From contig NZ_PGTX01000005.1 of assembly GCF_002797575.1 (NCBI RefSeq), positions 1 through 64,000 of the forward strand: 64,000 bases of DNA. Direction: 5' to 3'. Below, one piece after another: positions 7,051 to 59,032 of this stretch. Numbering within the stretch: the first letter of the stretch is position 1; the number at the start of each line of letters is the position of its first letter. Both the position numbers and the translations under genes were made by a program. Below the pieces are notes generated by a model that was given only the letters and a program-made list of their open reading frames with translations, was not told where the DNA came from and made no database searches. Origin of the DNA: Polynucleobacter brandtiae. GTDB lineage: Bacteria; Pseudomonadota; Gammaproteobacteria; Burkholderiales; Burkholderiaceae.

Positions 7051-7114
7051 TTAACTATCCTTAGTCATGCTTTATTTATAGCCCAAGGATATGACATTTT
7101 CATTAAAGCTTCTT

Positions 7115-7891
7115 TTAAATGGCCTGAGCAATCGATTCTTGACAGAAAGATGCTAATTTTTTTCGGTCGAGAGCCCCCCCTGAATCAAAAGAATATGCAG
7201 ACAACAAGGTTAAATGGGCCTGCAAGTCTGATGTAGCAATGATTTTGGCCATAGACTCTAATAAACCCATATCCCCAATAAAAGCAGGGATTTCTGTTCT
7301 TAAACCGCTTACTTTTGACCTATATTGAATAGCCAAGGGAATAGTCAAGCTTCGTGAAATGATCGCTGACTCAAAGAGATTAGGCTTAAATGGCAATACT
7401 GATTGGCCATTGGTGGACGTCCCTTCGGGAAAAATACAGACAGACTCCGATTGAAGAACTACGGCCATCTGACTGCCTACCTGCTTCGCATGCCGCGCAC
7501 TATCCCTCTGGATAAAAACAGTGCCCAGTTGAACCGCCATCCAGCCAAAAATAGGCCAACCTTTTACCTCGGATTTAGCGACAAACCGAATCGGCTTGAA
7601 CGCATTGATAGCATGGATATCTAACCAAGAGATGTGGTTTGAGACCATCAAATACGGGGAGTTTATTGCCGTTCCCGCACCATGAATCAATAGCTCTATA
7701 TTAAGAATCACTAGCAAACGGTGAGACCATTTTTGAATTTTTTGATCCTTATGCAGGCGATCCAAAAAAGGAAAAACAAAACAAAGCGTACCCACACCAC
7801 ACAAAATATGTACTGCTAATAAGGCCCATATCCAAAATTGCTTTATTTGAGAGGGTATCTTTTGGCGTGGATTGTAATGGGAGGAATTCAT
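7115..7891 (-). CDS. olsA: Lyso-lipid acyltransferase, PlsC/OlsA type
   Basis: 258 residues with an N-terminal membrane segment (about 20-45). The acyltransferase motifs are NHISWLD (catalytic H and D) and FPEGTS. The family makes phosphatidic acid from lysophosphatidic acid (PlsC) or ornithine lipid from lyso-ornithine lipid (OlsA). An OlsA role is favoured because olsB is about 2.4 kb away in the same cluster and the flanking genes are all lipid-remodelling or phosphate genes. Sequence alone does not settle PlsC against OlsA. It diverges from plcP across an 85-base gap that holds a Pho box. Confidence 0.7.
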   Translation of the reverse strand: MNSSHYNPRQKIPSQIKQFWIWALLAVHILCGVGTLCFVFPFLDRLHKDQKIQKWSHRLLVILNIELLIHGAGTAINSPYLMVSNHISWLDIHAINAFKPIRFVAKSEVKGWPIFGWMAVQLGTVFIQRDSARHAKQVGSQMAVVLQSESVCIFPEGTSTNGQSVLPFKPNLFESAIISRSLTIPLAIQYRSKVSGLRTEIPAFIGDMGLLESMAKIIATSDLQAHLTLLSAYSFDSGGALDRKKLASFCQESIAQAI

Positions 7892-7912
7892 GAGTAATCG
7901 TTAATATAAAAC

Positions 7913-7956
7913 AAGTCATGCAATTGACACATAAATGTCATGAGGCTTACACATAG
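7913..7956 (+). promoter_or_regulatory. Double Pho box before plcP
   Basis: Four direct 11-base units follow one another without gaps: AAGTCATGCAA, TTGACACATAA, ATGTCATGAGG and CTTACACATAG. The last two match the PhoB consensus (two CTGTCA(T/C)-like heptamers with a 4-base spacer). A -10-like TAATAG (7965-7970) follows nine bases later. The ATG of plcP is at 7977, so the transcript would be leaderless. PhoB control is inferred from this match and from phoB being encoded nearby. Confidence 0.75.
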
Positions 7957-7976
7957 GGCGGGCCTAATAGGTTCTC

Positions 7977-8786
7977 ATGACGCATTACAGAGCGATTTGG
8001 ATTTCAGATGTACACCTGGGAACAGCAGGGTGTCAAGCTAACTACCTCCTCGATTTTTTAAAACATAACGAAGCAGATACATTTTATCTGGTCGGAGATA
8101 TTATTGATGGGTGGAGACTAAAGCAAACCTTCTACTGGCCCCAATCCCATAACGATGTTGTCCAAAAGCTATTACGTAAAGCGCGAAAAGGAACGGAAGT
8201 CATTTATGTTCCCGGAAACCATGATGAAAGCGCAAGACAGTACTTTGGCATGTCCTTTGGGGATATTCAAGTAGTAGAGGAAGTGATTCACACCACTTTA
8301 GATGGTCGCAAGCTTTGGGTTACCCACGGCGATCTTTTTGATGGCGTCATGCAGTACGCCAAGTGGTTAGCCTATGTAGGCGACTCTTTGTACACCTTTA
8401 TTCTTTACATCAACCGCTACTACAACAGGGTTCGAGTCAAAATGGGGCTGCAATATTGGTCTCTATCTCAATACCTTAAGCACCAAGTAAAGAATGCAGT
8501 GAGCTACATCGCTGATTTTGAGCACATCATGGCCAGAGAAGCGCGTCTTCGCGAATGTGATGGCGTAGTCTGCGGCCATATTCACAAGGCCGAGATTCGG
8601 GAAATTGATGGCCTACTTTATTGCAATGATGGTGATTGGGTTGAAAGCCTTTCTGCGCTAGTAGAAACCACCAGCGGCGAACTCAAACTGATTTATTGGA
8701 CTCACATTAAAGGTGATCCAGTAGAGGAAGCAGAAGTGATTTCCCCATCCAATACCTTACTACCCACCTTAGAGGCCACAACATGA
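7977..8786 (+). CDS. plcP: PlcP-type phospholipase C (calcineurin-like metallophosphoesterase)
   Basis: 269 residues. The five metallophosphoesterase motifs are in order: DVHLG (D11, H13), GDIIDGW (D41), GNHDE (N81, H82), THGDLFDG (H117) and GHIHKAE (200-206). It resembles UDP-2,3-diacylglucosamine pyrophosphatase (LpxH), but its partnership with a glycosyltransferase and the Pho box match PlcP. PlcP is the phosphate-starvation phospholipase C that cleaves phosphatidylethanolamine or phosphatidylglycerol head groups and leaves diacylglycerol. It overlaps the next gene by four bases. No Shine-Dalgarno sequence is visible, and the start lies six bases after a -10-like hexamer. LpxH activity is the main alternative. 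Confidence 0.75.
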   Translation: MTHYRAIWISDVHLGTAGCQANYLLDFLKHNEADTFYLVGDIIDGWRLKQTFYWPQSHNDVVQKLLRKARKGTEVIYVPGNHDESARQYFGMSFGDIQVVEEVIHTTLDGRKLWVTHGDLFDGVMQYAKWLAYVGDSLYTFILYINRYYNRVRVKMGLQYWSLSQYLKHQVKNAVSYIADFEHIMAREARLRECDGVVCGHIHKAEIREIDGLLYCNDGDWVESLSALVETTSGELKLIYWTHIKGDPVEEAEVISPSNTLLPTLEATT

Positions 8787-9811
8787 AAATTATGATCGTT
8801 ACCGATGCATGGGATCCCCAAGTGAATGGCGTAGTTCGAACCCTCAAGCAAACCTGCGCAGAATTAGTCGCTATGGGGCATGAAGTAGAAATGATTACTC
8901 CCAATGACTTCAATACCATTCCCTGTCCAACCTATCCCGATATTTCTTTATCGATCCTTCCAGGAAAACGGGTTGCTCAGAAGATAAAAGCCTTTGCACC
9001 GGATGCGATTCATATTGCGACTGAAGGACCTTTAGGTCTATCAGCCCGCTCCTATGCTGTTAAAAATAACCTACCCTTCTCTACCGCTTATCACACCCGC
9101 TTTCCAGAGTATGTCAAAGCACGTATTGGCATTCCACTAGCCTGGACCTATACTTTTCTACGCTGGTTTCATGGGCCTTCTATGGCCGTTATGGCCCCTA
9201 CTATTGTTGTTAAAAAAGACTTAGAGGACTACGGTTTTAAGAATGTCGTTTTATGGTCTCGTGGCGTGGATTTAAATATCTTCAAAATACAGGCCTCCAA
9301 AGCACTGAATACTGCACACCCTATATTTTTATATGTGGGTCGCGTGGCGGTAGAAAAAAATATTAATGCCTTTTTAGAAATTGATCTTCCAGGATCTAAA
9401 TGGGTGGTGGGTGATGGCCCAGCAATGGCTGGCATTCAAGAAAAATATCCCAACATTAATTACTTAGGTGTTTTACAGCAAGAAGAGTTGGCAAAGGTTT
9501 ATGCTGCGGCAGACGTATTTGTCTTTCCGAGCAAAACAGACACCTTTGGCTTAGTTCTATTAGAAGCAATGGCTTGTGGAACACCCGTTGCAGCATACCC
9601 AGTAACGGGTCCGATTGATGTACTGGGCACCTCACCCGCTGGGGCAATGCATGATGATTTGCGAGTGGCCTGTATGCAGGCATTAAAAATTCCCCGAGAA
9701 ACTGCTAGGGCACATGCTGAGAAATTCTCCTGGAGAGCAGCCTCAGAACAGTTTGCAAATCACCTCAAGCCCGTTCCTTCAACAGCAGTACACCAAACCG
9801 CTATCGCTTAG
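8783..9811 (+). CDS. agt: Glycosyltransferase family 4, Agt-like glycolipid synthase
   Basis: 342 residues with a GT-B fold. The N-terminal glycine loop is PQVNGVVRT, and the C-terminal donor site is DTFGLVLLEAMACGTP with the E-X7-E pattern. In plcP-agt loci of other proteobacteria Agt adds glucose or glucuronic acid to diacylglycerol, producing phosphorus-free glycolipids. The ATGA overlap with plcP indicates that the two products act together: PlcP makes the diacylglycerol that Agt uses. Sugar specificity cannot be read from the sequence. A generic mannosyltransferase role is the alternative. Confidence 0.75.
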   Translation: MKIMIVTDAWDPQVNGVVRTLKQTCAELVAMGHEVEMITPNDFNTIPCPTYPDISLSILPGKRVAQKIKAFAPDAIHIATEGPLGLSARSYAVKNNLPFSTAYHTRFPEYVKARIGIPLAWTYTFLRWFHGPSMAVMAPTIVVKKDLEDYGFKNVVLWSRGVDLNIFKIQASKALNTAHPIFLYVGRVAVEKNINAFLEIDLPGSKWVVGDGPAMAGIQEKYPNINYLGVLQQEELAKVYAAADVFVFPSKTDTFGLVLLEAMACGTPVAAYPVTGPIDVLGTSPAGAMHDDLRVACMQALKIPRETARAHAEKFSWRAASEQFANHLKPVPSTAVHQTAIA

Positions 9812-9820
9812 GCCTGCATT

Positions 9821-10228
9821 GTGAGCGCCCCCTATCACATTGATCAGAACCCCCACAAGGGCAACCGCGGACTTACACGAGCGTGGCATGCCGCTAAAAA
9901 CTCTTGGTGCGGCATTGTTTATGCTTTTAAAGAAGAGAGTGCTTTTAGACAAGAATTAACGCTCCTAGTATTACTCACACCCTTAGCGCTACTAATGCCA
10001 ATTAGCCCATTAGAAAAAGCCATTCTGATCTCTTCCTTAGTGATGGTACTCGTAGTTGAACTCTTAAATTCTAGTGTGGAGGCAGCCATAGATCGCATCT
10101 CCTTTGAGCATCATGATCTATCCAAAAGAGCAAAGGATTTTGGCTCAGCTGCAGTCATGCTTGCCCTATTCATTTCAGCCCTTTTGTGGGCAACGATCAG
10201 CTTACCCATTGTCATTCAATCGTCATAA
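9821..10228 (+). CDS. dgkA: Diacylglycerol kinase
   Basis: 135 residues, slightly longer than the usual 120 because of an N-terminal extension. It shows the family motifs EESAFRQELTLL and VVELLNSSVEAAIDRI and three membrane segments. The enzyme phosphorylates diacylglycerol to phosphatidic acid. In this operon, nine bases after agt, it would compete with Agt for, or recycle, diacylglycerol released by PlcP. The start codon is GTG. Confidence 0.9.
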   Translation: MSAPYHIDQNPHKGNRGLTRAWHAAKNSWCGIVYAFKEESAFRQELTLLVLLTPLALLMPISPLEKAILISSLVMVLVVELLNSSVEAAIDRISFEHHDLSKRAKDFGSAAVMLALFISALLWATISLPIVIQSS

Positions 10229-10268
10229 AAGACTTTTACGATCCATTACATTACTAAGAGGTTAAATC

Positions 10269-11222
10269 ATGGCAGATCTTCCAAATCCATTCTCTCCATT
10301 TGATATTTTTAGCTCACGTTTTGAGCAAAAACCCAAAGCATTTAAAAAAATACAAGCCGGCGCTATCAAGAAAATATTTTCCAAAAAACTAGCTAAAAAA
10401 TTATTTGGTAAGAAATTTGCAATCCGCTCTAGAGCAGATCATGTGGCACCTGAACCCGTAGTCGTCATGGCAAAAGGAGTAGTAAAAGCGGTAGCAAAAT
10501 CAAAGCTGCCCGCATTAAGCATTTCCTGGGCAAGCGGCCCGGCAGAAGTAAAAGAGGCACAGCGCCTACGTTACAAAATATTTGCTGAGGAGATGGGTGC
10601 AAATCTCCCGCACCATGTTGAAGGTTTAGATGTTGATGATTTTGATGCTTATTGCGACCATCTCCTGATTCGTGATGAAGAGACACTCAGAGTTGTAGGT
10701 ACCTATCGCGTACTGCCTCCCCACAAAGCCCTAGAAATTGGTCGTCTCTACTCAGATTCTGAATTTGATCTCACCCGCCTTAATCACCTACGTCCAAAAA
10801 TGGTTGAACTGGGCAGATCCTGTGTTCATATGGACTACCGCTCAGGCGCCGTCATCATGGCCTTATGGAGTGGCCTCGCGCAATACATGCTCAAACACGA
10901 TTATGAGATTATGCTGGGGTGTGCCAGTATTCCGATGGCAGATGGGGGGCATTTTGCAGCAAGCTTTTATAACTCACTCAGTAATGATCAAATGGCACCG
11001 GTTGAAAATCATGCCTTTCCTCGTCTACCACTACCATTAGACCGCCTTAACGGAGGCTTAGATGTTGAGCCACCCCCACTAATTAAGGGCTACCTCAAAC
11101 TGGGTGCCAAGATCTGTAGTGCTCCAGCATGGGATACAGACTTTAATACTGCAGACGTCTTAACTATGTTGCGCCTATCGGAAATTAATCCCCGCTATGC
11201 AAAACACTTTTTTGGTGCTTAA
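10269..11222 (+). CDS. olsB: L-ornithine N-acyltransferase (OlsB-like)
   Basis: 317 residues. The C-terminal two thirds match the OlsB/hemolysin-like GNAT family: LRYKIFAEEMGA, EGLDVDDFDAYCDHLL, GTYRVL, ELGRSCVHMDYRSG and MLGCASI. OlsB transfers a 3-hydroxy fatty acid to the alpha-amino group of ornithine, the first step to ornithine lipids. The first 75 residues are rich in lysine and lack the conserved motifs, so they are an unusual basic extension that might bind membrane or acyl carrier protein. AAGAGG precedes the ATG. It is the last gene of the plcP operon and ends eight bases from the convergent ppx. Confidence 0.8.
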   Translation: MADLPNPFSPFDIFSSRFEQKPKAFKKIQAGAIKKIFSKKLAKKLFGKKFAIRSRADHVAPEPVVVMAKGVVKAVAKSKLPALSISWASGPAEVKEAQRLRYKIFAEEMGANLPHHVEGLDVDDFDAYCDHLLIRDEETLRVVGTYRVLPPHKALEIGRLYSDSEFDLTRLNHLRPKMVELGRSCVHMDYRSGAVIMALWSGLAQYMLKHDYEIMLGCASIPMADGGHFAASFYNSLSNDQMAPVENHAFPRLPLPLDRLNGGLDVEPPPLIKGYLKLGAKICSAPAWDTDFNTADVLTMLRLSEINPRYAKHFFGA

Positions 11223-12796: not shown

Positions 12797-13239
12797 GGCA
12801 TTTCCAGGGGAAAAGGTAGCGGGCTAGTTGAAAGGATCTATTTTATGCAATAACTAGAGCTTATCCACCAATAAATCAGCAAACGTTGGAACAAAGTACC
12901 AATACGCAAGATTTTTCTCAGGATTAAAGCAAGTTGGACTACCGTAGCCGCAAAAAATGCATCGGCCCCCTGAAACGGTCTTTAATAGTGGGGCTCAGAT
13001 GGACAACGATAAAACTACTCCGAAAGACAATCTTGCACCTTTAATATTTGGACTTCTTGACAGCATGGGCAAGTAATAAGGAAGCGATGTTTTTCGATCA
13101 ATACATTCATATTCGAATCCTAATCCAAGAATATGACAACTTAATGCCTACCTTCAAATAAGCTGACTTCAGAATGTCATATTAGCTTGATATGGTCTGA
13201 GTATTCATTTGAAAGCATTAACTTAAGGGCGCTTACTCG
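12797..13239. other. Intergenic region between ppx and a small hypothetical gene
   Basis: A 443-base gap with no long reading frame. It contains one short open frame at 12957-13076. Two stretches with single PhoB-like half-sites occur (TGTCAT near 13178 and TATGACA near 13131), but neither has a properly spaced second half. No terminator or tRNA was found. Confidence 0.5.
12957..13076 (+). CDS. Possible small protein of 39 (or 25) residues
   Basis: An open frame starts at ATG 12957 and ends with TAA at 13074-13076. An internal ATG at 12999 would give 25 residues (MDNDKTTPKDNLAPLIFG, ending MGK). There is no good Shine-Dalgarno sequence for either start; GTGGGG lies before the second. I recognise no family. 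It could be chance, a remnant, or a real small protein; only its place in an otherwise empty gap makes it worth listing. Confidence 0.2.
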   Translation: MHRPPETVFNSGAQMDNDKTTPKDNLAPLIFGLLDSMGK

Positions 13240-13449
13240 ATGAGCAAATATCACTATGAAGATGCGGTAGTGCAGCTTCAAGAATCTGGATCTATCAGCT
13301 TAATTGATTTTAAAAAACTACCTTATGAGGATCTTGTAGAGCTACTAGAAGAAATTAAGGTGTGGTGCTTATATGCAAACGGTAAACTAGATAAGCTCCC
13401 GAAGGAATCTAAGAAGCAGAAAGCAAAGAAAAAAGATAGGAAGGAATAG
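13240..13449 (+). CDS. Small hypothetical protein with lysine-rich tail
   Basis: 69 residues. The body (about 1-48) is amphipathic and acidic, and the tail (about 49-69) is almost all Lys, Glu and Gln with repeated KKxK. No membrane segment, signal peptide or known motif is present. A weak AAGG precedes the ATG. It is encoded alone on the plus strand, convergent with phoR, and followed by an AT-rich hairpin. The composition is that of a real expressed protein rather than a shadow frame, but no function can be given. Confidence 0.6.
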   Translation: MSKYHYEDAVVQLQESGSISLIDFKKLPYEDLVELLEEIKVWCLYANGKLDKLPKESKKQKAKKKDRKE

Positions 13450-13500: not shown

Positions 13501-14799
13501 TTAGCTTGCAATCCGCTCTTTTGGGAAACGCAGTGTGAAGGTGCTACCGATGCCAGGAGTACTCTCGATAATTAATTGAGCTTGATGACGATTGGCAATA
13601 TGCTTCACAATTGCCAAACCTAAACCCGTACCGCCAGTATCTCGAGATCGACTACGATCGACGCGATAGAATCGCTCTGTTAGGCGTGATAAATGCTCTG
13701 ACGCAATGCCTGGCCCCGTATCTGTCACAGAAAAGTCGCCCTGACCTTCTGCATTGACAGACCATTTAGCGCTAACCGACCCAACATCAGGTGTGTATCG
13801 AACCGCATTGGATACTAAGTTACTAAATGCCGAAAGAATTTCTCGCTCATCTCCCATTAAATTTTTAGGGCTCTCAAGATCAAAGTTAAAGGTATGGTGA
13901 CCTTGTGAAAGTGCCTCAGCATCATTCTTTAATAAAGCCATTACTGCCTCTAGCTTGATAGCCTGCATAGGCGCTGGCAAGGTGTTGGCCTCTAAATTAG
14001 CAAGAGTCAATAAATCCTCCACCAAGCTTTTCATCCGCTGCGCCTGTGACATCATCAACTCACAGTACTGATCTCGCTGAGACTTATCCAGATCAATCGA
14101 TTGCATAGTCTCCAAGAAACCCATCAATACAGTGATTGGGGTTCTCATTTCATGGGAAACATTAGCTACGAAATCGCGACGCATAGCATCCGCTTTTTGT
14201 AAATCTGTTACATCCTGCACCAATAAAAGGTGACGCTTGTCACCAAATGAGAATGTTTGCAACAGCAAGCTTAAGTTTGCTGCCGGACCCATGCGCTCTA
14301 GCAATAGAGGGGCTTCAAAATGGCGCTTGTTGAGATATTGAATAAACTCTGGGCGACGTAATAAGAAATTAATTCTTTGCATTGCATCACGCTTAAATTT
14401 CAATCCAAAAAAACGTTCGGCGATTGCATTGCACCACTCGATCTGATCCTGATCATCTAGCATCACGATGCCATTAGGAGACGCTTGAAAGGCTTCTATA
14501 AAACGTGCATGCTGCTGCTCCACTGTTCTTATTTCTTGTTTTAAGTTCTTCACTAAGCGCTGTAGTCGAAAGAAAACCTCTTCCCAAAAGCCACTAGCCA
14601 GAGGCATAGTGTCAACCGTATCTTGGAGGATGTGATTTTTGAGCCTGGCTAAATTGATATAAGAATAAATCAAGGGAATTGCCAGGGTGGCAATCCCCGT
14701 GGCGATAGCCCAGCTGCCTCCCCAATTAGACTGAACAATGAAGGCAGCTATAAACGCCAAACCAACGAGGGTTATAAACCGAGTGAAAATAGATAACAT
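13501..14799 (-). CDS. phoR: Phosphate-regulon sensor histidine kinase
   Basis: 432 residues. Two membrane segments lie within residues 5-50, a PAS domain spans roughly 95-195, and the dimerisation helix carries the phospho-acceptor in VSHEMRTPI (H216). The ATP-binding domain has the N box (NLVSNAVRYTP), TDTGPGI and GGTGLGLAIV. PhoR phosphorylates PhoB when phosphate is scarce, under control of PstSCAB-PhoU. It lies 63 bases after phoB on the same strand. Confidence 0.95.
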   Translation of the reverse strand: MLSIFTRFITLVGLAFIAAFIVQSNWGGSWAIATGIATLAIPLIYSYINLARLKNHILQDTVDTMPLASGFWEEVFFRLQRLVKNLKQEIRTVEQQHARFIEAFQASPNGIVMLDDQDQIEWCNAIAERFFGLKFKRDAMQRINFLLRRPEFIQYLNKRHFEAPLLLERMGPAANLSLLLQTFSFGDKRHLLLVQDVTDLQKADAMRRDFVANVSHEMRTPITVLMGFLETMQSIDLDKSQRDQYCELMMSQAQRMKSLVEDLLTLANLEANTLPAPMQAIKLEAVMALLKNDAEALSQGHHTFNFDLESPKNLMGDEREILSAFSNLVSNAVRYTPDVGSVSAKWSVNAEGQGDFSVTDTGPGIASEHLSRLTERFYRVDRSRSRDTGGTGLGLAIVKHIANRHQAQLIIESTPGIGSTFTLRFPKERIAS

Positions 14800-14862: not shown

Positions 14863-15588
14863 CTAGGTTTGGGTGGGAATCTTGGTAATGCGGTAGCCGC
14901 TTCCACGCACTGTCTCAATAAAACGATCGCTGTCAGTGGGGGCTAATGCTGCTCGCAGTCTTTTAATATGAACATCGATCGTACGCTCTTCGATATAGAC
15001 CTCGTTACCCCAAACCTTATCCAGTAGACTAGCCCTGGAGTGGACTCTTTCTGGGTTTGACATCAAGAACTGAAGAAGCCGATACTCCGTTGGACCCAAG
15101 GAGACCGTCGCAGAATCACAATCCGGGATCACAATAGTAACGCGGTGAGATAAGGGATCCAATCTCAAAGGACCGACTGATAATGGGACGGAGCCCGTTT
15201 CCTCCAAAGGAAGCTGGCGCCTCAAGATAGCCCTCACCCGCGCGACAAGCTCTTTAGGTGAAAAGGGCTTGGTAACGTAATCGTCTGCACCTGAATCCAG
15301 ACCCAATACTTTGTCCGCTTCGTCACTTTTAGCGGTTAGCATCAATATAGGCAGACTTCTAAAGCGTTCATTTGCACGCAGTTCTCTAGCAAATTGAACT
15401 CCAGACTTGCCAGGTAGCATCCAATCCAAAATCAAAAGACTGGGCAATGACTCTTGCATTATGTTGAGGGCAACTTCAGTTTGAAGGGCCTTCTCAACCT
15501 GATAGCCAGCATGGCTCAAATTAATAGAAATAAGCTCAGCAATTGACGGCTCATCTTCCACTACTAAAATCCGCTGGACAATTTCCAT
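14863..15588 (-). CDS. phoB: Phosphate-regulon response regulator
   Basis: 241 residues, OmpR/PhoB class. The receiver domain has the acidic pocket E11-D12, phospho-acceptor D55 in LILDWMLPG, and K in TKPFSPKEL. The winged-helix DNA-binding domain ends with the usual IDVHIKRLRAAL and VRGSGYRI. It binds 11-base direct repeats (Pho boxes), two examples of which are seen at 7913-7956 and 20172-20193. It starts two bases after the phoU stop. Confidence 0.95.
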   Translation of the reverse strand: MEIVQRILVVEDEPSIAELISINLSHAGYQVEKALQTEVALNIMQESLPSLLILDWMLPGKSGVQFARELRANERFRSLPILMLTAKSDEADKVLGLDSGADDYVTKPFSPKELVARVRAILRRQLPLEETGSVPLSVGPLRLDPLSHRVTIVIPDCDSATVSLGPTEYRLLQFLMSNPERVHSRASLLDKVWGNEVYIEERTIDVHIKRLRAALAPTDSDRFIETVRGSGYRITKIPTQT

Positions 15589-20171: not shown

Positions 20172-20193
20172 ATCTATGACGCTTTTATGACAA
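20172..20193 (-). promoter_or_regulatory. Pho box of the pst operon
   Basis: On the minus strand, TTGTCATAAAA is followed directly by GCGTCATAGAT: two 11-base PhoB units close to the consensus CTGTCATAWATCTGTCAT. A -10-like TATCGT lies seven bases downstream. This is the expected control of pstS by PhoB. Confidence 0.85.
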
Positions 20194-56974: not shown

Positions 56975-59032
56975 CTAGCGAACAAAAGGCAGATAAGCAT
57001 ACAAAACCCAAGCCAACAATACTGCTAAGCCTGCAATCATTGCGAAGGCATAGTGATATAAATAACCGGATTGCAAATGACGGATTACAGAAGATAGGCG
57101 CCCTACTGCATGGGCGCTACCATTCACTAAAAAGCCGTCGATGACTTGCTGGTCGCCGCGATGCCACAGCACGCCGCCTATCCATAACAGGCCTTTAGCA
57201 AATACCCTCTGATTGAAATCATCAAGGTAGTATTTGTTATCTAATAACTTTTTAAATGGCGCTAAAGCCTGGGCAACAACACCAGGTAATTTAGGAGCCC
57301 ATAAGTATCCAATTGCTGCCGTGAATACGCCCAGTACAACCAGAAGTAAAACTGGCGAAGTGAGGGAATGCAAAGCCATTGCTACTGGACCATGAAATTC
57401 TTCGGCAATTTCTTTCATGGCAGGATGTCTAGCAATATCTACAAAGATGGAGTCGCCGAAAAAAGTACCAAACAACAGGGGCGTAATTGTGTAATAACCA
57501 ATAATCACCGATGGGATAGCCAATAAAATCAATGGCAGCGTCACAACAAGGGGAGATTCGTGGGGTTTCTGGCCGGGAGCTAAGCCATGATGAGCATGAT
57601 CATCACCCTGTTCTGCATGATCATGGTGATCGTGCGCATGTGAATCCGTATGACCCCATCGCGCTTTGCCATGGAATACATAAAAATATAAACGGAATGA
57701 ATACAGTGCTGTTACAAAAACACTGGCCATTACCGCAAAATAAGCAAATCCCGATCCCGGAAGATGGCTAGCTGCAACGGCTTCAATAATCGAGTCTTTT
57801 GAATAGAAGCCAGAAAAGAAAGGCGTGCCAACTAAAGCCAAGTTGCCCAGCAGCATCATCAGACAAGTAATTGGCATGTACTTCCAAAGCCCGCCCATTT
57901 TGCGCATATCCTGCTCATGGTGCATTCCTAAAATAACGCTGCCAGCCGCAAGGAACAATAGGGCCTTAAAGAAAGCATGGGTCATCAGATGAAAAATAGC
58001 CACTGGGTAGGCAGATACGCCTAAGGCTACTGTCATGTAACCCAGCTGCGATAGTGTTGAGTAAGCTACAACACGCTTGATATCTGTTTGAACAATGCCT
58101 AAGAAACCCATAAAGAGTGCGGTAATAGAACCGATCACCAAAATAAAGCTTAGAGCTACGTCTGATAATTCAAATAACGGGGACATGCGGGAAACCATAA
58201 AGATTCCAGCAGTAACCATCGTAGCCGCATGAATCAATGCCGAAATTGGTGTTGGGCCTTCCATAGAATCTGGCAACCAAACATGGAGTGGGAATTGGGC
58301 CGATTTACCCATCGCGCCAATGAAAAGACAGATACAAATAACCGTCAGTAGATTCCAGCTTGTGCCAGGCAGGACTTGTGCTGCCAGATTCGAATTCTGA
58401 GAAAAGATAACGTCATAGTTCATTGAACCCGTAGCGGCTAATAAAAGACCAATACCTAAGATGAAACCAAAGTCACCAATACGATTGACTAAGAACGCTT
58501 TCATGTTGGCAAATACTGCTGTTTGACGCTCGTAATAAAAACCAATGAGCAAATAGGAAACGACACCTACTGCCTCCCAGCCAATAAATAGCTGCAGAAG
58601 GTTATTACTCATGACCAGCATCAACATAGCAAAGGTAAAGAGTGAGATGTAGGAGAAGAAGCGGTTGTAGCCCTCTTCACCCCGCATATAACCAATGGTG
58701 TAGATGTGAACCATCAAGGACACAAAAGTCACCACACACATCATGGTCGCCGTCAAAGGGTCAATCAAGAAGCCAATATCTAAGTTCAGCTCACCTAGCT
58801 CCATCCAACGATAAACGGAGCCATTGAAATAAAAACCATCATTAACCTGAACCAACACAAAGCAAGACAATACAAATGCAATCGTCACACCCAAAATCGT
58901 AACGAACTGACAGGCACCATGACCAATTCGGTTGCCGCCTAATTTAGTACCCAGCAAACCGGCGATGAGAGAGCCAAACAATGGCGCCAGAGGAATTACG
59001 CAAAGAAGAGGGAGTGTTAAAGTAAATTGCAT
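56975..59032 (-). CDS. nuoL: NADH-quinone oxidoreductase subunit L
   Basis: 685 residues, antiporter-like with the long lateral helix at the C-terminus. It has LLQLFIGWEAVGVVSYLLIGF and KSAQFPLHVWLPDSMEGPTP. A histidine-rich loop (HTDSHAHDHHDHAEQG and more) lies at about residues 460-495, between membrane segments. This is seen in related species, but its role is unknown. Confidence 0.97.
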   Translation of the reverse strand: MQFTLTLPLLCVIPLAPLFGSLIAGLLGTKLGGNRIGHGACQFVTILGVTIAFVLSCFVLVQVNDGFYFNGSVYRWMELGELNLDIGFLIDPLTATMMCVVTFVSLMVHIYTIGYMRGEEGYNRFFSYISLFTFAMLMLVMSNNLLQLFIGWEAVGVVSYLLIGFYYERQTAVFANMKAFLVNRIGDFGFILGIGLLLAATGSMNYDVIFSQNSNLAAQVLPGTSWNLLTVICICLFIGAMGKSAQFPLHVWLPDSMEGPTPISALIHAATMVTAGIFMVSRMSPLFELSDVALSFILVIGSITALFMGFLGIVQTDIKRVVAYSTLSQLGYMTVALGVSAYPVAIFHLMTHAFFKALLFLAAGSVILGMHHEQDMRKMGGLWKYMPITCLMMLLGNLALVGTPFFSGFYSKDSIIEAVAASHLPGSGFAYFAVMASVFVTALYSFRLYFYVFHGKARWGHTDSHAHDHHDHAEQGDDHAHHGLAPGQKPHESPLVVTLPLILLAIPSVIIGYYTITPLLFGTFFGDSIFVDIARHPAMKEIAEEFHGPVAMALHSLTSPVLLLVVLGVFTAAIGYLWAPKLPGVVAQALAPFKKLLDNKYYLDDFNQRVFAKGLLWIGGVLWHRGDQQVIDGFLVNGSAHAVGRLSSVIRHLQSGYLYHYAFAMIAGLAVLLAWVLYAYLPFVR

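Follow-up and report, generated by a model that had tools for sequence, protein, structure and literature searches.

In Escherichia coli, the pho box lies 10 bp from the core promoter, pstS carries two boxes, and the phoA and pstS messages have leaders. Passages of PMC4415409 describe the E. coli box as 11-nt direct repeats of the CTGTCAT type, and passages of PMC10294691 describe its spacing to the core promoter as strict. In the marine plcP-agt clusters, plcP adjoins a glycosyltransferase gene, and Pho boxes are predicted in plcP clusters (PMC4796936, in excerpt); the excerpted text describes no leaderless arrangement of plcP, and the word Betaproteobacteria is absent from the main text of that paper. 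Leaderless mRNAs, in which a TA-rich promoter directly upstream of the start replaces the Shine-Dalgarno sequence (PMC4603805, in excerpt), have been described in Burkholderia cenocepacia and Cupriavidus metallidurans (excerpts of PMC4603805 and PMC7563307), and a share of 4.67% of primary starts is given in a passage of PMC7563307. Among the literature matches listed, which are mainly open-access papers, there is no report of a leaderless, PhoB-driven plcP.

The window analyzed here comprises 64,000 nt from Polynucleobacter brandtiae (GCF_002797575.1, contig NZ_PGTX01000005.1, positions 1-64,000, forward strand). It contains a plcP-like gene with the following neighbors, as well as genes for PhoB and PhoR:

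7977-8786, + strand: plcP-like metallophosphoesterase, 269 aa (Pfam Metallophos_2 and Metallophos; LpxH models below cut-offs)
8783-9811, + strand: GT4 glycosyltransferase in agt-like position, overlapping plcP by 4 bases (no cut-off reached among the 25 NCBIfam models listed)
9821-10228, + strand: dgkA, diacylglycerol kinase (PF01219)
10269-11222, + strand: olsB-like ornithine N-acyltransferase (PF13444; OlsB NCBIfam models best, below cut-off)
7115-7891, - strand: olsA-like lyso-ornithine lipid acyltransferase, divergent (PF01553; OlsA models best, below cut-off)
14863-15588, - strand: phoB (TIGR02154, 308.7 bits, cut-off 296.2)
13501-14799, - strand: phoR (TIGR02966, 406.9 bits, cut-off 334.2)

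The plcP product contains PF12850 and PF00149 and scores 47.4 and 40.1 bits against LpxH models with cut-offs of 134 and 190, as a calcineurin-like metallophosphoesterase distinct from LpxH. The name PlcP rests on gene context and on the naming in the original prediction; its phospholipase C activity on membrane phospholipids, which would remove phosphorus from these lipids, is predicted, as is the substrate of the glycosyltransferase. Left of plcP lie ppk2 and the olsA-like gene, and downstream are the glycosyltransferase, dgkA, and the olsB-like gene. The locus is part of a phosphate gene cluster, in which pstS also passes its NCBIfam cut-off, an alkaline phosphatase passes its Pfam cut-off, and phoU, pstB, pstA, and pstC were named by eye from their translations; ppk2 likewise passes its NCBIfam cut-off. 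An Rfam search gave no match at the plcP locus; elsewhere in the window it places a carA cis-regulatory motif (RF04192, 33007-33212, - strand, 184 bits).

We compared 143 Polynucleobacter-type plcP loci, a set in which some genomes are counted twice (under a G handle and under a name), many are MAGs with broader labels, and one is labeled Jezberella. The glycosyltransferase gene is present in 142 of these loci, olsA in 140, dgkA in 132 (some truncated), ppk2 in 111, and olsB in 89, many of the loci being short. Two loci (L063 and L153) have too little upstream sequence for the start codon to be judged. From 139 loci we obtained 118 distinct promoters, 101 from a main clade and 17 divergent, which are not independent, as many are close kin and 44 are left at less than 80% identity. 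A plcP match is absent in 10 of the 151 genomes of the genus searched, and some matches carry stop codons, are split, or are partial (e.g., G017, G105, G116, and G023). The stop codons inside the matches of G017, G105, and G116 may reflect gene loss or sequencing error.

Directly upstream of plcP are four head-to-tail units, with conservation given for the 101 main-clade promoters:

7913-7923, + strand: Pho unit 1, AAGTCATGCAA (GTCA 98-100%)
7924-7934, + strand: Pho unit 2, TTGACACATAA (TG 100%, C 98%)
7935-7945, + strand: Pho unit 3, ATGTCATGAGG (TGTCA 95-100%)
7946-7956, + strand: Pho unit 4, CTTACACATAG (T.CA 99-100%)

The array (7913-7956) is followed by GGCGGGCCTAATAGGTTCTC and then by the plcP ATG at 7977. 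Scored against the E. coli heptamer CTGTCAT with C/T allowed at positions 1 and 7 (our own choice), it has 22 of 28 matches and is the sole site to reach 22 among 127,920 window positions; 60 Markov-1 shuffles of the window contain 0.033 such sites each, or about 1e-5 over 46 intergenic start positions. With a weight matrix, the array scores 32.9 bits versus a best of 14.95 in 20 shuffles, and the next four-unit site in the window reaches 7.0 bits, leaving aside the array's own one-unit shift (16.5). Because the training set of the matrix consisted of this promoter's counterparts in relatives, the untrained heptamer test is the fairer of the two. The original prediction of four gapless 11-base PhoB-type units is thus confirmed, and its description of them as a double Pho box is supported by the sequence, which has four 11-nt direct repeats with a CTGTCAT-like heptamer where at least two are expected, with PhoB and PhoR encoded nearby in the genome. 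The units recur in homologous promoters: the 118 distinct promoters align ungapped from -75 to the ATG, each with 19-25 of 28 heptamer matches at the fixed register, and conservation of the unit cores is 95-100% in the main clade but lower in the 17 divergent promoters. A whole-genome search for two heptamers with 3 mismatches was rejected as a definition of the regulon, being too noisy (129 matches versus 76 in the reversed control).

The window has four further Pho-type sites, and those before olsB and ppk2 serve as a control for the leader. In contrast to plcP, the genes olsB, ppk2, and pstS have leaders behind their boxes. Each site has two units and a 10-bp spacing to a TA-type hexamer, read by eye:

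10209-10230, + strand: Pho-type box before olsB, TACGAT (19.5 bits; 46 of 88 olsB upstreams reach 12 bits)
7087-7108, - strand: Pho-type box before ppk2, TATAAA (12.5 bits; 87 of 110 ppk2 upstreams reach 12 bits)
20172-20193, - strand: Pho-type box before pstS, TATCGT (19.1 bits)
13163-13184, + strand: Pho-like site before a 69-aa ORF (13240-13449, + strand), TATGGT (17.1 bits)

Only the olsB and pstS boxes exceed the best two-unit score of 20 shuffles (18.9). The site at 13163 is above the mean shuffle maximum (14.3); the ppk2 box is below it and not significant alone, and we accept it because it recurs in relatives. Another two-unit site, at 59016, scores 11.8 bits. Upstreams below the 12-bit cut (42 of 88 for olsB, 23 of 110 for ppk2) do not enter the counts of distances and -10 elements, and the six inspected for each gene still look box-like by eye. 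Measured to the ATG, the best-scoring olsB box is 31-77 nt away (44 distinct; 32 at 40-43), the widest distances perhaps reflecting mis-detected boxes; for ppk2 the range is 34-56 nt (68 distinct; 62 at 38-43). AAGG or AGGA is present in many of the leaders inspected for these two genes. For plcP, the box-to-ATG distance is 24 nt in 118 of 118 promoters; set against the olsB and ppk2 distances, this indicates that the neighbors have leaders of slightly varying length and that plcP has no room for one.

The olsB box overlaps the end of dgkA, and ornithine-lipid synthesis may be induced apart from plcP. The 69-aa ORF, located between ppx and phoR, encodes a lysine-rich, uncharacterized protein present in 19 of 41 genomes, all of the same genus. 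Just one heptamer with 10-bp spacing is kept in the nine relatives shown, so its control by PhoB is doubtful.

On the other side of the array, the divergent gene has a candidate promoter of its own:

7903-7908, - strand: TATATT, likely olsA -10, 11 bases before its ATG (recurs in relatives)

TATATT occurs 8-11 bases before an in-frame olsA ATG in 74 of 121 distinct divergent pairs, and olsA may itself be near-leaderless, with back-to-back promoters leaving no room for long leaders. It had also been suggested that the array influences this gene. As activation, this is unlikely: the array faces away from olsA, the window scan found no Pho box in the olsA orientation (best four-unit minus-strand score in the gap, 2.25 bits), and the gap varies by lineage. 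Alternatively, PhoB on units 1-2 might also act on olsA, most likely by blocking it, as the expected olsA -35 region (assuming a 17-bp spacer) overlaps these units, and unit 1 and TATATT are separated by 4 bp in 48 of 122 distinct upstreams, among them that of this window. Interference is thus possible in the 4-bp-gap lineages. However, the gap is 16-25 bp in 30 upstreams and 54 bp in one, exact TATATT was not found in 43 of the 122, and the gene for the partner enzyme, olsB, has its own Pho-type box. We therefore consider an action of PhoB on olsA unlikely.

Between the array and plcP, two overlapping registers could provide the -10:

7961-7968, + strand: conserved GGCCTAAT block, with the likely non-canonical -10 CCTAAT (7963-7968) after GG, 10 bp past the unit-4 heptamer (from alignments)
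7965-7970, + strand: TAATAG, alternative -10 register, 12 bp past the heptamer (last two positions weakly conserved)

A GGCYTAAT-type block (GGCTTAAT or GGCCTAAT, -16 to -9) is exact in 92 of the 118 distinct promoters; the T at -9 is found in all 118, followed by 8 bases and then the ATG. Because the other Pho-type boxes of the window show 10-bp spacing and the GGCYTAAT block is conserved, CCTAAT is the more likely -10. The array thus has the fixed spacing of a Pho box, 10 bp, to CYTAAT, and the hexamer itself is atypical. In 109 distinct promoters, -12 is C in 94% and -11 is T or C in 97%, with GG ahead, while at the same place, counting sites above the score cut, olsB has T-12 in 95% and A-11 in 93% (40 distinct) and ppk2 has them in 91% and 91% (55). 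Sigma-70 promoters do not usually lack T-12 and A-11, and a different start site is therefore possible. As a genome-wide signature, GGCYTAATN6YCATG was rejected: a perfect match occurs at plcP only, and at most one mismatch gives 16 sites versus 4 in the control.

The original prediction took TAATAG as the -10. The motif does lie six bases before the ATG, but its choice was probably two bases off. A PhoB promoter otherwise as described, with TAATAG/TAATRC (12 bp from the box) as its -10, would have the canonical T-12 and A-11 and a +1 falling exactly on the A of the ATG, and its TAAT is 94-100% conserved in the main clade. Conservation is weak at its last two positions, however, whereas the upstream GGC is 94-97% conserved; the other Pho-type boxes of the window have 10 bp by eye, and it is GG-C..AAT at 10 bp, not TAAT, that is kept in other genera. 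This register is accordingly quite unlikely. Both registers place the transcription start at -2 to +1 of the plcP ATG.

The predicted start of the message is as follows:

7976-7977, + strand: likely initiation site, C(-1) A(+1), where +1 is the A of the ATG (C-1 95%, T-2 86% in 101 main-clade promoters)

The usual +1 position is about 7 nt after the -10 hexamer, which here would be the T two bases before the ATG. Many bacterial transcription starts have a pyrimidine-purine initiator, which the main-clade T-2 and C-1 resemble. The start codon is fixed in this window by an in-frame TAG (7968-7970), which rules out a start further upstream, and by a conserved core, YRAIWISDVHLG, from codon 4. Among the 141 loci judged, 139 have an ATG at the aligned start; L155 and L167 start one codon later, 7 and 6 bases past GGCCTAAT. 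Counted by distinct upstreams, 120 of 122 have the AUG expected of a leaderless mRNA at this place. Upstream of the ATG, as far as the nearest stop, 113 of the 118 promoters have no in-frame start codon, and the other 5 have one within 75 nt.

A conserved Shine-Dalgarno sequence is likewise missing from the group: of 118 promoters, 5 have a match of at least 4 bases within the 8 bases that follow the -10, 22 have one of 3 bases, and 91 have none. The claimed lack of a Shine-Dalgarno sequence holds in this sense for the group, but this window has a weak 4-base AGGT at 7969-7972. The predicted 5' UTR follows from the eight bases between the -10 and the ATG. As these leave no room for a leader, leaderless initiation (0-2 nt) is the best reading. 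The leaderless message proposed originally is upheld insofar as promoter and start codon are fused in nearly all of the related loci examined, and its 5' end is predicted from geometry.

plcP is probably not alone in this respect. We sampled 206 genes encoding at least 150 aa, taken from the window and 200 kb of the genome; a strong -10 is located 6-11 bases before the first ATG in 13, versus 2, 7, 6, 5, and 2 at five other offsets, which suggests several leaderless genes, although starts are uncertain and the excess is modest and blurred. A looser TAnnnT test shows no clear peak across all 206 genes (30 versus 13-29); among the 137 without a 4-base Shine-Dalgarno match, the counts are 29 versus 16 and 15.

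We also examined 36 plcP loci (16 returned and 20 hand-picked) from the 111 genomes of other genera of the family with a match; these are, as a guess, Burkholderia-, Ralstonia-, or Cupriavidus-like. In 27 of the 36, GG and then C..AAT stand 10 bp after a four-unit array, and the first likely ATG, in frame, is 28-32 nt beyond the final T of the -10, as opposed to 9 in Polynucleobacter. PlcP is longer at its N-terminus in these 27 loci, and about 19-23 more bases precede the first likely ATG. A Shine-Dalgarno sequence from our list precedes the 28-32 nt ATG in 4 of the 27; moreover, L178 and L187 have an in-frame ATG 8 nt past GG-C..AAT, much as in Polynucleobacter, and a second one 32 nt past it, while L181 has an additional in-frame ATG 18 nt past the -10. 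Some of the true starts, and hence the contrast with Polynucleobacter, are uncertain for these reasons. Among the other loci, L169 and L171-L173 have the array followed by TATGAT or TACCAT, and their ATG, 28-36 nt further on, has a clear Shine-Dalgarno sequence; L174, L175, and L184 have a two-unit box with the same GG-C..AAT (by eye), and no array is seen upstream of plcP in L168 and L170. The locus labeled Jezberella montanilacus (L109) has the same architecture as Polynucleobacter, with TGTAAT and 8 bases to the ATG.

Because relatives of the same family keep the array and GG-C..AAT with a longer distance and N-terminus, the leaderless state in Polynucleobacter looks derived. The simplest history would start from an ancestor whose four-unit Pho promoter had a short leader; Polynucleobacter would then have lost both this leader and the N-terminal extension.

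A leadered message from an unseen promoter upstream of or inside the array, with GGCYTAAT bound by another protein or acting as an RNA element, would account for the poor -10 and for the persistence of GG-C..AAT in other genera, but GGCYTAAT occupies the position of the -10s of the olsB and ppk2 boxes, a conserved Shine-Dalgarno sequence would still be missing, and the divergent gene starts just 85 bases away, all of which makes this alternative very unlikely.

We consider it highly probable that this is a PhoB-activated promoter of a lipid-remodeling operon with its start codon at the initiation site and a leaderless plcP mRNA. In this model, phosphorylated PhoB would occupy the four head-to-tail 11-bp units and recruit RNA polymerase to the atypical -10 GGCYTAAT, 10 bp further on. 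The start codon in Polynucleobacter would have shifted up to the initiation site, with 8 bases from the end of the -10 to the ATG, and the plcP message would start at or within two bases of its AUG and be translated as a leaderless mRNA. The promoter would drive a putative membrane-lipid-remodeling operon of plcP, the glycosyltransferase, and dgkA. The array, its spacing, the fixed geometry, the absent leader room, and the contrast with olsB, ppk2, and pstS are read from the sequence; PhoB binding, the exact 5' end, leaderless translation, operon structure, lipid chemistry, and the direction of change are what we infer. More tentatively, and with somewhat more doubt than confidence, we propose that transcription and translation starts of Polynucleobacter plcP are fused and held by selection at one nucleotide, making lipid remodeling PhoB-gated and Shine-Dalgarno-independent, with a -10 that, without T-12/A-11, would be almost wholly PhoB-dependent.

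If correct, this would be a case, fixed across many species, of a stress-regulated enzyme gene that has apparently lost its leader. Since sister genera seem to keep a leader, a benefit of leaderless translation in starvation could be tested by leader swaps. The case further points to a Pho-controlled lipid-remodeling locus in common freshwater bacteria. The atypical -10 may also show how far PhoB compensates for a poor promoter.

Compared with E. coli phoA and pstS, the plcP array shares the CTGTCAT-type 11-nt repeats and strict spacing, but those genes are leadered, whereas plcP here has a non-TA -10 and is predicted to be leaderless. The plcP-glycosyltransferase pairing and the Pho boxes are the same as those described in passages on the marine plcP-agt clusters (PMC4796936); here, in contrast, dgkA, olsA, and, in most loci, olsB and ppk2 are found beside plcP. 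The leaderless genes of B. cenocepacia and C. metallidurans come from experimental single-strain maps and, in the excerpted accounts, are enriched in regulators; the arrangement described here is predicted, but its geometry is fixed across many species at the Pho-type promoter of an enzyme gene.
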